Below are positions 40,654 through 45,995 of a DNA stretch of 64,000 nt, piece by piece (positions within the stretch are counted from its first letter, which is position 1; every line of letters begins with the position of its first letter). The DNA lies in NCBI RefSeq assembly GCF_900458435.1, contig NZ_UHCT01000001.1, forward strand, positions 868,001 through 932,000. Direction: 5' to 3'. The notes beneath the pieces were generated by a model that saw only the letters and a program-made list of their open reading frames with translations, had not been told where the DNA came from and made no database searches. Origin of the DNA: Staphylococcus carnosus. Lineage in GTDB: Bacteria; Bacillota; Bacilli; Staphylococcales; Staphylococcaceae. The translations under genes were made by a program, and so were the position numbers.

Positions 40654-41906
40654 ATGTATTTTACAACATTGACAGCAGAAGAATTTCAACAATTTACTAA
40701 AGAAAATTTTTCCACTACACGCAATATTCAAGGCATTTTCAATATAGAAACATAAATCAAAAGGATAGCCATTTAGTTGGAGTCAAAGATAGCAGTGATA
40801 ATGTTATTGCAGCTTGTCTTTTAACTGAGGCAAGATGTTTAAGATATTTTAGATATTTCTATACTCACAGAGGCCCTGTAATGGATTATAGTGACATGAA
40901 ATTAGTGAAATATTTTTTCGCCTCCCTTACTAAATATTTAAGAAAACTTAAATGTATTTATGTATTGGTAGACCCGTATCTACTTGAAAGCATTAGAGAG
41001 ACAGACGGAGAAATTATAGATAAGTATAATAACAAGGTATTAATAAAAGAATTAGCAAAACTAGGCTATATTCATCAAGGATATTCAACAGGCTATTCTC
41101 AAATGAGCCAAATTAGATGGTTATCTGTTTTGGATTTAAAAGACAAAACGGAAACACAAATATTAAATGAGATGGACTATCAAACACGCAGAAATATTAA
41201 AAAAACATACGAAATGGGTGTGCAGGTCAGAACTTTATCTATAGATGAAACACCTGCATTTTTTGAATTATTCAGGATGGCAGAGGAAAAGCATGGGTTT
41301 AAATTTCGAGAATTAGAATACTTTAAACAAATGCAACATACCTATGGAAATCGTGCATTCTTAAAAATGGCTTATGTTGATCTACATAACTATTTAAATA
41401 AATTAAATGAGAAACAGAACGAGTTAGTCTCAGAGTTGAATAAAATTAATGCTAAATTAGAGGAAAGTCCTAATTCCAAAAAGACAAAAAGTAAATTGAA
41501 TCAACTCAAACAACAAGAAGCGAGTAATAATCGTAAAATAAATGAAACGAAAGATTTAATAAAGACAAAAGGGGATACTTTAAATCTTGCGGCAGCATTA
41601 TATTTGTACAACGAACATGAAGTTTATTATTTATCAAGTGGTTCTAACCCAGAATATAACCAATTCATGGGCGCTTATAGACTTCAATGGGAAATGATTA
41701 AATTTGCTAAAAAGAATCATATAGATCGTTATAATTTTTATGGTGTTACTGGAGATTTTTCTGATAACGCAGAGGATTATGGGGTACAAAGATTTAAAGA
41801 AGGTTTCAATGCATATATTGAAGAATATATTGGAGACTTTATAAAACCTGTACGCCCATTGATTTATAAATTATATCAACTCACTGAAAAAGCACGCCAT
41901 AAATAA
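40654..41906 (+). pseudogene. FemABX-family peptidoglycan aminoacyltransferase, frameshifted
   Basis: Reading from ATG 40654 (after AAAGGAG) gives MYFTTLTAEEFQQFTKENF, then a shift into the -1 frame at A4T5 (40703-40711) gives FHYTQYSRHF and continues without stop to 41906. The joined product of about 417 residues aligns along its length with FemA/FemB, including IAACLLTEARCLRYFRYFY, HRGPVMDYS, a coiled-coil helical arm (about 240-300) and DRYNFYGVTGDFSDNAEDYG. These enzymes add glycines or serines to the interpeptide bridge from tRNA. In the starting frame a stop falls at codon 34. It is an accessory copy, perhaps Lif-like. A start at 40881 would lack the first substrate domain segment. Confidence 0.7.
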
Positions 41907-42062: not shown

Positions 42063-42527
42063 TTATTCACTGAAAATTTTATCCCATTGATCTCTTTTGT
42101 CTAAGAAATCTTGAGCAATTTCTTTCGCACCTTCTAGTGAGTGACTTGCTGCCCAACCACATTGAACTTCGTTGCATGCTGGTACTTCATCTGCTGCAAG
42201 AACATCTTTTAAAGTTGCTTCAATAATATTCAAAACATCTTCATAATCATCATGATTGATTAAAGATACATAAAATCCTGTTTGGCAACCCATAGGGCTT
42301 AAATCAACCACTTTATCAGTATGGTTTCTAATATTTTCAGCCATTAAATGTTCTAAAGAATGCAATCCTGGCATTTTCATGTGCTCTTTATTAGGTTGTT
42401 TGAAACGAATATCATATTTTTTAATTACATCGCCGTTTGCGCCTTCTACTGTTCCTGCTAAACGTACGAATGGTGCAACAACTTTAGTGTGGTCTAAATT
42501 GAAACTTTCAACGTTCATTTTTGGCAT
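42063..42527 (-). CDS. luxS: S-ribosylhomocysteine lyase LuxS
   Basis: This 154-residue metalloenzyme converts S-ribosylhomocysteine to homocysteine and the AI-2 precursor. The metal ligands H56 and H60 lie in [11 protein letters not shown]81 in PMGCQTGFY is catalytic, and a third ligand cysteine lies in [11 protein letters not shown]. Length and motifs are normal. It starts after GAGGAGG. It is divergent from the large M20/ATP-grasp gene. Confidence 0.97.
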
Positions 42528-42812
42528 AACGTAAATCCTCCTCTAGTTCTTTGTATTAATTGTAACAAGCAAAAGGCACTTTTACAATTTGTATGGCTCA
42601 ATTTTACGGTTTAAGTTGATAAGTTTACTCGGGATAAATTTATTAAATTTTCGAAAAAGTAATGACAAAGCCTAGAAAAAGCATTAAAATGTTTATTAAT
42701 CGATTTTACTGATAAAGATATAATCATGAGATTGAAAGCTATAAACGAGAGTTCCCAGAATCTTTCAATGCTCAACAGATTTATAACTTTTGAATAAAGG
42801 GAGCTATGTGAA

Positions 42813-45197
42813 ATGTCAGTTGAAACACAAGTTGAACAATTTATTAAAAATAAAGAGTCAGAATTTATAGATATTAGTCATAGAATTCATGAACGTCCGG
42901 AATTAGGAAACCAAGAAGTATTCGCTTCTGGTTTATTAATGCAAGAACTCACGAAATATGGATTTGAAATTGAACAAGATATTGCAGGACACCCAACTGG
43001 TTTTATTGCTGAATATAATAGTCATAAACCAGGCCCCACTATTGGCTTCCTTGCTGAATATGATGCATTGCCAGGTCTTGGACATGCATGCGGTCACAAT
43101 GTTATTGGAACAACAAGTGTTTTAGCAGGTATCGCTTTGAAAGAAGTGATTGACGAAGTAGGAGGCAAAGTAGTTGTGCTCGGCTGTCCTGCAGAAGAGG
43201 GCGGCGAAAATGGAAGTGCCAAGGCAAGTTATGTTAAAGCAGGTGTCATTGATCAACTAGATGTTGCTTTAATGCTGCATCCAGGGAACGAAACGTATAA
43301 AACAATTAATACATTAGCAGTAGATGTATTAGATATTAAGTTTTACGGACGTAGTGCACATGCATCAGAAAATGCAGATGAGGCAATCAATGCATTAGAT
43401 GCGATGATCAGTTTCTTTAATGGTATTGCACAACTTAGACAGCAAATTAAAAAGGGTGAACGTGTGCATGGTGTCATTTTAGATGGAGGCCAAGCTGCAA
43501 ATATCATTCCTGATTTTACACATGCACGTTTTTATACGAGATCAAGAACAAGAAAAGATTTAGACTTTTTAACAAAACGTGTAGGTCAAATTGCACAAGG
43601 GGCAGCTGTACAAACAGGCTGTGATTATGAATGCAAACCTATTCAAAATGGTGTGAACGAATTTATTTTGACTCCTACATTAGATGAACTATTTGCTTAT
43701 TATGCTAAAAAGTATGGAGAAGAAGTTAGTGAAGATGATTTTGGATATGGTTCAACAGATACAGGTAATGTCAGCCATGTGGTACCGACATTGCATGCGC
43801 ATATTAAAATTGGACCAAGCAACTTAGTCGGGCATACTTATAAATTTAAAGAAGCTGCAGCGAGTGAGCATGGTGACAGCGCATTAATCAAAGGTGCAAC
43901 AATTTTAACGCGTATGGCGCTAGATTTGATTTCTAATAACGAATTATTAAGAGAAATCAAAGAACAACATGTGCGCAAAGTGAAAAAAGCTTCACTGAAA
44001 GAATTCCGTAAGCATTCTGAACAGCCGAAAGTAACGTTAAGTGATTTATATGAGGACGATATTGTCTATACATCTCGACCTTCATATGTTTCAAATCCAT
44101 GGTTGGAACCAGATGAACATCAATCTAACTTTTTAACTGGACGTGAATTATTAATCGCCAATAAAATGCCAGTTATTGTCCATGAAGCGAGTGTCACAGA
44201 TAAACTCAAACAACTCTTTGATGAAGTAGGCAAAGAAGTACCTAATAATGTCTATAAGTTTCATAACCAAGCAAGTTATGAACATTTATTGCAATCATTA
44301 ACAAAAGAAGATCACAAAAAAATCTATTTCCAATATGTGCATAGCGAAGATTTAGTAGCTAAAGAAGATTATGCGCTCGATAAAGATGTGTATGTTGCAT
44401 TGAATAACAAAGCGCGTATACCTGAATGGACGGCTGGTAAATATCTGCCTAAACGTCAAATTGTAGAAATAGAAGAATTTGAAGCAGCTGTGCGAGATTG
44501 GGATTTCCCGCTTGTTTTGAAACCTGGTGATGATTTGCCGACAGCTGGTGGATATGGTGTGATGATTTGTTATAACGAAGAAGATTTAGACAAAGCCATC
44601 AAAAGAATTAATAATGCAGTTGAAGAGACAGACACAATTATTATTGAACAAAAAATCGAGGCAATTGCCAACTACTGTGTTCAGTTTGCTTATTCTGAAC
44701 AATTAGGTTTGAAATATTTAGGTACAACTGAACAGTTAACGAATAAATATGGTTTCTATAATGGTAACCAAAGCGTGCCAGTTGATGAAGTACCGCAAGC
44801 TGTCATTGAAGCGGGTAGAGAAATCATGGAAATCGGTATTGATAAAGGTTTCTATGGTGTTGGCGGTTTTGATTTGCTGTTTGATAAATATGGAGATGTT
44901 TATGCAATTGATTTGAACTTCCGTCAAAATGGTTCAACAAGTATGTTGTTGTTGGATGATGAATTATCTGGTGCTAACCATAAATTTTATAGTTACTTCG
45001 CAAATGGTGACAATACAAAATTTTTCCGTACGATAATGAAGTATGTACGACAAGGTAAAATTTATCCATTGTCTTATTATGACGGAGATTGGTATGGTAA
45101 GAATAAAGTGAATTCTCGCTTTGCTTGTATCTGGCATGGCAGCAGTCGTGAAGAAGTTGAACTCAATGAACGTGCATTCTTAAAAGAATTAGAATAA
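42813..45197 (+). CDS. Fusion of M20 peptidase (PM20D2/AbgB-like) and ATP-grasp ligase
   Basis: This 794-residue protein joins two enzymes. Residues 1-385 are an M20 amidohydrolase with AEYDALPGLGHACGHN (82-96), GCPAEEGGENG (124-134), a metal His in MLHPG (156), the dimerisation lid from about 172 and VGHTYKF (339-345). This form of the active site is that of AbgB and PM20D2 rather than classical carboxypeptidases. After a basic linker (385-415), residues 440-794 look like an ATP-grasp ligase: LVLKPGDD (568-574), TIIIEQKIE (608-616), GGFDLLFDKYGDVYAIDLNFRQN (684-706). Mammalian PM20D2 cleaves faulty dipeptides made by the ATP-grasp enzyme carnosine synthase, so a make-and-repair peptide enzyme is a fair guess. 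ATG follows AAAGGGAG. Confidence 0.8.
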   Translation: MSVETQVEQFIKNKESEFIDISHRIHERPELGNQEVFASGLLMQELTKYGFEIEQDIAGHPTGFIAEYNSHKPGPTIGFLAEYDALPGLGHACGHNVIGTTSVLAGIALKEVIDEVGGKVVVLGCPAEEGGENGSAKASYVKAGVIDQLDVALMLHPGNETYKTINTLAVDVLDIKFYGRSAHASENADEAINALDAMISFFNGIAQLRQQIKKGERVHGVILDGGQAANIIPDFTHARFYTRSRTRKDLDFLTKRVGQIAQGAAVQTGCDYECKPIQNGVNEFILTPTLDELFAYYAKKYGEEVSEDDFGYGSTDTGNVSHVVPTLHAHIKIGPSNLVGHTYKFKEAAASEHGDSALIKGATILTRMALDLISNNELLREIKEQHVRKVKKASLKEFRKHSEQPKVTLSDLYEDDIVYTSRPSYVSNPWLEPDEHQSNFLTGRELLIANKMPVIVHEASVTDKLKQLFDEVGKEVPNNVYKFHNQASYEHLLQSLTKEDHKKIYFQYVHSEDLVAKEDYALDKDVYVALNNKARIPEWTAGKYLPKRQIVEIEEFEAAVRDWDFPLVLKPGDDLPTAGGYGVMICYNEEDLDKAIKRINNAVEETDTIIIEQKIEAIANYCVQFAYSEQLGLKYLGTTEQLTNKYGFYNGNQSVPVDEVPQAVIEAGREIMEIGIDKGFYGVGGFDLLFDKYGDVYAIDLNFRQNGSTSMLLLDDELSGANHKFYSYFANGDNTKFFRTIMKYVRQGKIYPLSYYDGDWYGKNKVNSRFACIWHGSSREEVELNERAFLKELE

Positions 45198-45329
45198 TGA
45201 AGAATATTAATAAACCAGCAGTTTATTCTGTTGGTTTATTTAGTTATATTCAATAATGTTACATTGACTGATATGAGATATTATCATATATTTGGGATGA
45301 TAAACAACAATAGAGAAAGTGGGTTTGTT

Positions 45330-45995
45330 ATGGATTATAAACACGAATCATTTTTTAAGGATTTACTTGTAAATGAAACTTACTATATTGCTATCAAGGA
45401 CAAGAAAATGGTAAGAAAAGAAGTAGATGGCAAAAATTATCCTTGCTTTTGGACTGAGAAAAGCTTAGCAGAAGAGTTTTTTAAAGATAATCATCAAAGT
45501 TATGATAAAATTATTTCACGCGACATCGATCGTTTTGTAACAAGTGAAATGGATGATTTATTCGATAAAGGCGATGAAGTACTTGTTAATGTTACGGATA
45601 CTGTAAAAGGTCATTTTATTGATATTTATGAATTCACAAAAGAATTAATGACTGAACTTGATCGTATTCGTACTGTAGAGTTTTCACGTATTACAGCAAG
45701 CACTGATGAAGTCTATGGATTAACAGACAAAGGCAGTAAGCATTTTATTATCATCAGTGAAAATGGTGAAAGCAAGCCGAATATCATGCCAGTATGGAGT
45801 GATTACAAATCTGCTGAAAAAGTACGCGACGAAGATTTTGAAGAATGCGAAGTTCGCGAAGTAGAAGGTGAAGTTTTCAGCGACTGGTTAGAAAAATTGA
45901 GAGACAATGATGAAGGTGTAGGAATTAATCTCAAACCTGGCGTTGTTGGTACAATAGTTTCTGCGCAAACTTTAAAAAATGAACTTTCATATTAA
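45330..45995 (+). CDS. DUF2750-like protein of unknown function
   Basis: This acidic 221-residue protein starts MDYKHESFFKDLLVNETYYI. Two similar halves each contain a Trp-centred phrase (CFWTEKSLAEEFF at about 30-42 and MPVWSDYKSAEKVR at about 150-163), consistent with two DUF2750-type units. No catalytic motif is visible. I chose ATG 45330 (AGTGGG upstream) over an open extension of 33 codons. It follows the M20/ATP-grasp gene by about 130 bases on the same strand. Confidence 0.65.
   Translation: MDYKHESFFKDLLVNETYYIAIKDKKMVRKEVDGKNYPCFWTEKSLAEEFFKDNHQSYDKIISRDIDRFVTSEMDDLFDKGDEVLVNVTDTVKGHFIDIYEFTKELMTELDRIRTVEFSRITASTDEVYGLTDKGSKHFIIISENGESKPNIMPVWSDYKSAEKVRDEDFEECEVREVEGEVFSDWLEKLRDNDEGVGINLKPGVVGTIVSAQTLKNELSY

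Follow-up and report, generated by a model that had tools for sequence, protein, structure and literature searches.

The hmrA-ldmS gene and its two halves

The window analysed here, a stretch of 64,000 nucleotides of Staphylococcus carnosus (contig NZ_UHCT01000001.1, positions 868,001 to 932,000), carries a gene at 42813–45197 in which a dipeptidase of the HmrA type and an ATP-grasp ligase of the LdmS type are encoded as one polypeptide. The frame is open from ATG to stop, and the reverse strand of the same interval contains stops throughout in the same register. The first-pass annotation of the window had proposed a single chain joining a peptidase to an ATP-grasp ligase; this was borne out by the open frame and by domain models and PDB sequences that matched both halves. 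Sequences in which the two halves are separate genes are referred to below as split. The gene and its parts are as follows.

42813–45197, + strand: fused hmrA-ldmS gene, 794 amino acids and a stop; frame open from ATG to stop, recurring as one fused frame in 8 of the 84 Staphylococcus genomes
42822–43976, + strand: HmrA / M20D metallo-dipeptidase half, residues 4–388 (3RAM, E-value 8.8e-194; TIGR01891; Pfam)
43089–43835, + strand: peptidase catalytic set C93, H95, E128, E129, H156 and H341, unchanged across the 80 split and the 8 fused sequences
43971–44024, + strand: fusion linker, residues 387–404, in the place of the hmrA stop and the ldmS ribosome site and start of split species
44025–45182, + strand: LdmS ATP-grasp ligase half, model match to residues 405–790 (NF047900; 7R8P)
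44409–44924, + strand: ATP-grasp set K533, K570, E612, D687, D700, N702 and R704, likewise unchanged in all 80 split and all 8 fused sequences

The peptidase half matched the amidohydrolase model TIGR01891 with 207 bits (cut-off 153.75) and the Pfam families Peptidase_M20 (residues 83–370) and M20_dimer, a dimerisation domain (residues 174–264); by sequence an M20 fold was assigned to it. The residues of its catalytic set presumably serve as metal ligands, glutamate base and in catalysis, judging by known M20D structures. After HmrA and the ligase, the next PDB matches were Xaa-Arg dipeptidases (PM20D2; 8XZC, E-value 1.5e-59), and the AbgB-type entry 3IO1 followed only at 1.1e-12. The half had been described as a PM20D2/AbgB-like dipeptidase; the PM20D2-like, M20D part of this description held, while the AbgB type lay far behind. 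The HmrA of Staphylococcus aureus is reported to be specific for dipeptides with N-terminal methionine (Met-X; Jamdar 2015), and the same specificity may be carried over to the fused half from this homologue.

The ligase half matched NF047900 (L-aspartate--L-methionine ligase LdmS) over residues 405–790 with 656.3 bits (cut-off 475), and the PDB entries 7R8P and 7R8Q over residues 401–794 with an E-value of 9.6e-189 (1.3e-189 for 7R8P in another search). All three motifs that had been quoted for this half, KPGDD and IIIEQKIE among them, were present in the translation. The ATP-grasp ligase had been placed in the last 355 residues; it does lie there, but the half is longer, at ~394 residues. 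The residues of the ATP-grasp set, which by comparison with known ATP-grasp enzymes would be those that handle ATP and magnesium, have not been lost in the homologues. The S. aureus enzyme reportedly forms Asp-Met (Pederick et al. 2022, J Biol Chem 298:102392), with a selectivity for Asp and Met that is said to have been measured in vitro with offered amino acids; the LdmS paper is also said to mention an ldmS operon and regulators of methionine and cysteine metabolism. Asp-Met as the product of LdmS is also stated by the NCBIfam family name (NF047900), and no support was found for an aminoacyl conjugate, which had been named as another possible product. A published function of the staphylococcal homologue would have counted against the first-pass annotation, and this is partly so: homologues of both halves, HmrA and LdmS, have been published for S. 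aureus, and the reactions are not unknown. The domain databases, against which a search of the halves had been advised, identified M20D (TIGR01891, Pfam) and LdmS (NF047900), respectively, and we regard the identity of both halves as virtually certain.

The Pfam scan of the fused protein detected the M20 part only. A public record from Staphylococcus debuckii, 95% identical to the fused protein, is named just "amidohydrolase", a name that conceals the ligase half, and contains a third Pfam domain, PF27267.

Occurrence, origin and conservation of the fusion

All 84 Staphylococcus genomes had matches to LdmS and HmrA, whole or in pieces. The fused frame was present in eight of them (G000, G017, G020, G049 and G062–G065). 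The remaining 76 have the two genes, or what is left of them where they are broken, side by side, separated by a stop or a frame difference. The fused gene is real and neither a chance frame nor an assembly slip, because the same frame recurs in these eight genomes with mostly synonymous differences in the linker. The probability that a sequencing or assembly artefact has merged two genes is negligible: many synonymous differences separate the identical frames of the eight genomes, and the fused form is carried by two protein clusters, P0002 and P0003, with 28 and 114 member sequences. No LdmS fusion turned up outside these clusters among proteins of ~437–1389 amino acids, in searches that reach relatives with exact shared words only and in one of which the 8000 best candidates were scored. 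A candidate M20 fusion in another genome (G492, open frame 668) was rejected, as its real frame has 387 amino acids.

In the 16 split loci examined, the ldmS ribosome site lies within the end of hmrA, and stop and start are a few bases apart or overlap. The fused clade has lost both the stop of hmrA and the start codon of ldmS, a strong, conserved ribosome site is missing, and a linker of 18 residues stands in their place. Within codons 381–430 none of the eight fused genes contained an in-frame ATG, and three had a GTG or TTG preceded by a weak four-base match to a ribosome site, at a codon that differed among the three; among the split sequences a start with a ribosome-site match of at least 5 was present in 65 of 80 and missing in 15. 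Separate translation of the ligase from an internal start was therefore rejected, as no internal start is conserved in the eight fused genes. Several split copies appeared damaged: hmrA and/or ldmS were broken by stops or shifts in L112 (G057), L113/L047 (G040), L147 (G055) and L106 (G007), and ldmS contained a single stop in L046 (G053) and L099 (G016). These might reflect decay or sequencing error.

In a tree of 88 sequences the eight fused genes formed one clade with a support of 1.0. The tree comprised 80 loci of the genus and eight Macrococcus-type or Mammaliicoccus records, and G007, G040, G055 and G057 were omitted as broken. When gaps were allowed in up to two rows, 156 HmrA columns were invariant in the 80 split sequences, and 150 of these were unchanged in all eight fused ones; for LdmS the numbers were 88 and 84. 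The exceptions (in split-species letters E34, I97, G144, I327, P329 and K363 in HmrA, and T462, F527, G637 and L750 in LdmS) all lie outside the assigned catalytic sets. Of the 28 pairs that the fused genes can form, 8 were compared: the ratio of non-synonymous to synonymous substitution rates (dN/dS) of the halves was 0.011–0.072, with one LdmS value uncomputable at saturated synonymous sites, and the 18 linker codons differed by 0–4 non-synonymous and 4–11 synonymous changes. By these counts the linker is under purifying selection, and the fusion is most simply read as a single event whose product has been retained since.

Methionine genes and riboswitches around hmrA and ldmS

A first Rfam scan found an S-adenosylmethionine (SAM) riboswitch (RF00162) directly before hmrA in 10 of 14 loci. 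A second scan, with a model built from these ten riboswitches, found it in 37 of 100 loci, including the first ten, which match by construction. Outside Staphylococcus the riboswitch stood directly before hmrA in all 15 loci with an adjacent hmrA-ldmS pair, which correspond to 13 genomes when L152 and L027, and L153 and L024, are counted as the same; of the other genomes of the window's family, a part was covered. Within the genus it preceded hmrA in 21 of 84 genomes, one match (L046) being weak at 38.6 bits. Where its distance was measured, in 29 loci, the riboswitch was on the hmrA strand and ended 47–106 bases before the start of the hmrA alignment. The clade to which the fused genes belong lacked it throughout, in 60 of 60 sequences, and it was also absent from L111 and from the loci assigned to S. 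schweitzeri, S. simiae, S. caprae and S. lugdunensis. The genome of the window has eight SAM riboswitches elsewhere, two of them before metN-like genes. No T-box or other Rfam leader reached the gathering score in the fused and non-riboswitch loci that were scanned for it (L001, L036, L049 and L068).

In G084, a genome of another family of the order, a SAM riboswitch, hmrA, ldmS and metN-, metI- and metQ-like genes follow each other in one direction (L148, 5387–10480), with gene junctions that overlap or are tightly spaced. Against the NCBI cut-offs, MetI scored above (221.1 versus 212), and MetN (374.6 versus 499.7) and MetQ (186.9 versus 374) scored below; the Pfam family of this MetQ lay far above its own cut-off, and the riboswitch-led metN genes of the window's genome scored similarly to the G084 MetN (391.7 and 376.7).

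HmrA was also linked to the methionine transporter where ldmS is absent. A draw of 398 genomes of the class contained 94 with an HmrA match, and the best 30 loci were examined over ~1.5 kb to each side of HmrA; they represent 11 genera, with 15 loci from one genus, and two of them are the loci that had prompted the test. In 29 of the 30 (L191–L220) MetQ lies directly upstream of HmrA on the same strand and ldmS is absent, and MetQ was found at none of eight control M20 loci. At the thirtieth locus (L224, 2931–4169, G457) HmrA stands beside genes that, by their sequences, probably encode an oligopeptide-binding lipoprotein and, on the opposite strand, a cystathionine synthase and a cystathionine lyase. 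None of the 30 loci as first fetched contained a SAM riboswitch, the 1.5 kb upstream ending inside the operon; with a longer upstream region, all four metNIQ-hmrA operons (L188, L189, L222 and L223) had the order SAM riboswitch, metN, metI, metQ, hmrA. The same scans found no SAM riboswitch in L190, L221 and L224, which are not metNIQ operons. An FMN riboswitch downstream of the operon in G359 (L222, 5873–6017) is, as far as seen, a chance neighbour. Within the order, five genomes (G097, G116, G117, G119 and G120) had an HmrA relative without an LdmS above cut-off, and one of these loci, L173, contained neither MetQ nor a SAM riboswitch. A scan of 83 Staphylococcus loci (L001 and L031–L112) found no MetQ beside hmrA. 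S. aureus GmpC, an NlpA/Lipoprotein_9 protein like MetQ, binds glycyl-methionine (PMC5020093).

The surroundings of the fused gene in the window contained the following features.

42063–42527, − strand: luxS, S-ribosylhomocysteine lyase, divergent neighbour (PF02664; NF002604 above cut-off)
42528–42812, no strand: region of 285 bases between the divergent luxS and hmrA-ldmS genes, without a SAM riboswitch, unlike part of the relatives
42662–42690, + strand: tentative promoter-like pair ATGACA-17-TAAAAT, hexamers shared by the fused loci
45209–45240, + strand: terminator-like hairpin directly after the stop (3 in the region versus 2.0 in shuffles)

The luxS gene across a divergent region of 285 bases was thus located as the first-pass annotation had described it. 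A scan of 42450–42880 detected no SAM riboswitch. The hexamers ATGACA and TAAAAT are kept in the eight fused loci, with ATGGCA in one, and ATGACA also occurs in 11 aligned split loci; the number of promoter-like sites in the region, 17 versus 15.4 in shuffles, was not above the shuffles. A block lying about 100 bases ahead of hmrA (L068, L049 and relatives) is conserved across the 11 aligned split loci that have no riboswitch and is altered in the fused clade. Going by this alignment it may be a regulator site, for which CymR would be a candidate. The hairpin suggests, as a lead only, a transcript of a single gene. The TTG start listed for the downstream gene at 45231–45995, which has a DUF2750 domain, may be too early because of this hairpin. 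In the FemAB-family gene at 40881–41906 (341 amino acids) the Pfam match starts at model position 73, and the gene is probably short at its N-terminus or was started too late.

Proposed function and comparison with known systems

Four lines of evidence point to methionine, namely the reported reactions of the two homologues, the riboswitches, the G084 operon and the class-wide metQ-hmrA order, and a role of the fused protein in methionine metabolism is very probable. On sequence grounds, both halves are likely to be active within one chain. Our preferred reading, to which we assign a probability of roughly 0.55, is a bifunctional methionine-dipeptide enzyme for methionine salvage, which frees the Met of Met-X and then captures it in the form of Asp-Met. 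The N-terminal half would release Met from Met-X dipeptides that were imported or formed inside the cell, and the C-terminal half would use ATP to capture the released Met as Asp-Met. The peptidase would spare this product, whose N-terminal residue is Asp and not Met. The fusion would set a ratio of 1:1 and place the release of Met beside its capture, and no alternation would be required because the bond that is formed differs from the one that is cleaved. Methionine salvage is what the comparative evidence, namely the metNIQ operons and SAM riboswitches, suggests in the first place, and the wider context of HmrA, in transporter operons without LdmS, favours salvage as its base function. The direction of flow, salvage and then capture, is a more tentative part of the proposal.

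Several observations weigh against salvage and capture. HmrA has been described as an endopeptidase as well (Botelho 2011). No SAM riboswitch precedes any of the eight fused loci, and a ligase that locks up Met under a riboswitch opening at low SAM would be odd unless it served the retention of Met. The substrate of LdmS in the cell may differ from the one in vitro. In addition, relatives of ldmS were found outside the order in six genomes of the class draw, although two scored under the cut-off of the family, and at these six loci neither hmrA, within the 5–7 kb fetched on either side, nor a SAM riboswitch was present in the stretches. In two of the stretches a T-box leader was present, at 4 to 5 kb from ldmS. 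Three of the six genomes contained an HmrA relative elsewhere (E-value below 1e-70), and the other three did not. Extra copies of ldmS in Staphylococcus (L114, L115 in G077, and L116 in G059), 54–58% identical to the ligase half of the window, likewise had no hmrA beside them, and the surrounding sequence that was fetched contained no SAM riboswitch. One of these, L115, adjoins genes for a BCCT transporter and an NtaA/DmoA-type monooxygenase. As ldmS occurs without hmrA and HmrA without LdmS, the two activities are separable, and LdmS must serve some use alone.

The main rival is proofreading, the idea of the first-pass annotation: occasional wrong products of the ligase (Met-Met, Met-Asp or Met-Ala) would be destroyed by the peptidase half, specific for N-terminal Met, and Asp-Met would be spared. 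The closeness of the M20 half to the Xaa-Arg dipeptidase (PM20D2) structures and the match between the reported Met-X preference and the wrong-order products of an Asp and Met ligase are in line with it, and PM20D2 acting for carnosine synthase is a precedent. A fixed 1:1 ratio also fits a repair enzyme; it would suit salvage and proofreading alike, and the same facts fit both. HmrA beside metNIQ without ldmS in 29 of 30 class loci, however, speaks for salvage and not repair, and ldmS without a neighbouring hmrA in six of six loci also counts against proofreading, which we consider rather unlikely. That the single chain serves channelling or a built-in proofreading of products, with a shared Met pool, Met passing from the peptidase to the ligase and wrong dipeptides destroyed at once, is doubtful; if it were true, Asp-Met would be a genuine intracellular metabolite in which staphylococci hold methionine.

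A neutral fusion would require only the chance loss of a stop and a ribosome site between two neighbours, each of which works as before, so that the link has no meaning. The close or overlapping stops and starts of the already adjoining split genes, the confinement of the fusion to one clade and the intact domains would all be expected from such an event. The purifying selection on the linker codons, over a clade with near-saturated synonymous sites, argues for a retained link, though folding alone would keep a linker, and none of the eight genomes has reverted to two genes; on balance we find a neutral fusion unlikely. Another possibility is a reversible store, in which Asp-Met is made when Met is plentiful and later hydrolysed by the peptidase half. 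Methionine dipeptides are indeed the concern of both activities. This explanation is quite improbable, since the reported preference of HmrA is for N-terminal Met and not Asp, two activities that share a chain are always expressed together, and the riboswitch control in the relatives opens at low SAM.

The literature examined offered no explanation for the purpose of LdmS, despite its reported in vitro reaction. The natural fusion suggests a Met-X dipeptidase as the partner of LdmS, and the links to metNIQ and SAM riboswitches suggest methionine salvage; why Asp-Met is made may thus become a question that can be addressed on one protein, in what seems to be a food-related group of species. The halves are known and the hmrA-ldmS pair is likely known. 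The fusion appears to be new. Neither a fused hmrA-ldmS and its single clade, nor the riboswitch ahead of the two genes, nor the association of HmrA with metNIQ was mentioned in the titles, beginnings of abstracts and passages of the matches listed, a sample with few subscription journals and without the paper on LdmS.

Among known systems, the metNIQ-hmrA operons of the class share with the fused gene the HmrA family, together with methionine transporter genes and, where checked, a SAM riboswitch; unlike the fused gene, they have no ldmS within the 30 loci. The pair of PM20D2 and carnosine synthase is similar in that a PM20D2-like peptidase acts alongside an ATP-grasp dipeptide ligase. These are two proteins in vertebrates and one chain here, and a repair role would follow by analogy only. 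No carnosine synthase was among the 19 PDB matches of the ligase half (E-values up to 1), the presence of such a structure in the PDB not having been ascertained. HmrA of S. aureus (3RAM) resembles the whole peptidase half, which is 70–76% identical to unbroken split Staphylococcus copies, and shares its catalytic residues; it is a separate protein, listed as tetrameric in a review table, whereas the fused half is tethered to the ligase. LdmS of S. aureus (7R8P, 7R8Q) in turn resembles the whole ligase half, which shares 57–70% identity with the split Staphylococcus copies that adjoin hmrA, and the ATP-grasp residues are common to both. In the split species LdmS is a protein of its own, whereas in the fused clade it forms the C-terminal half of a longer chain.

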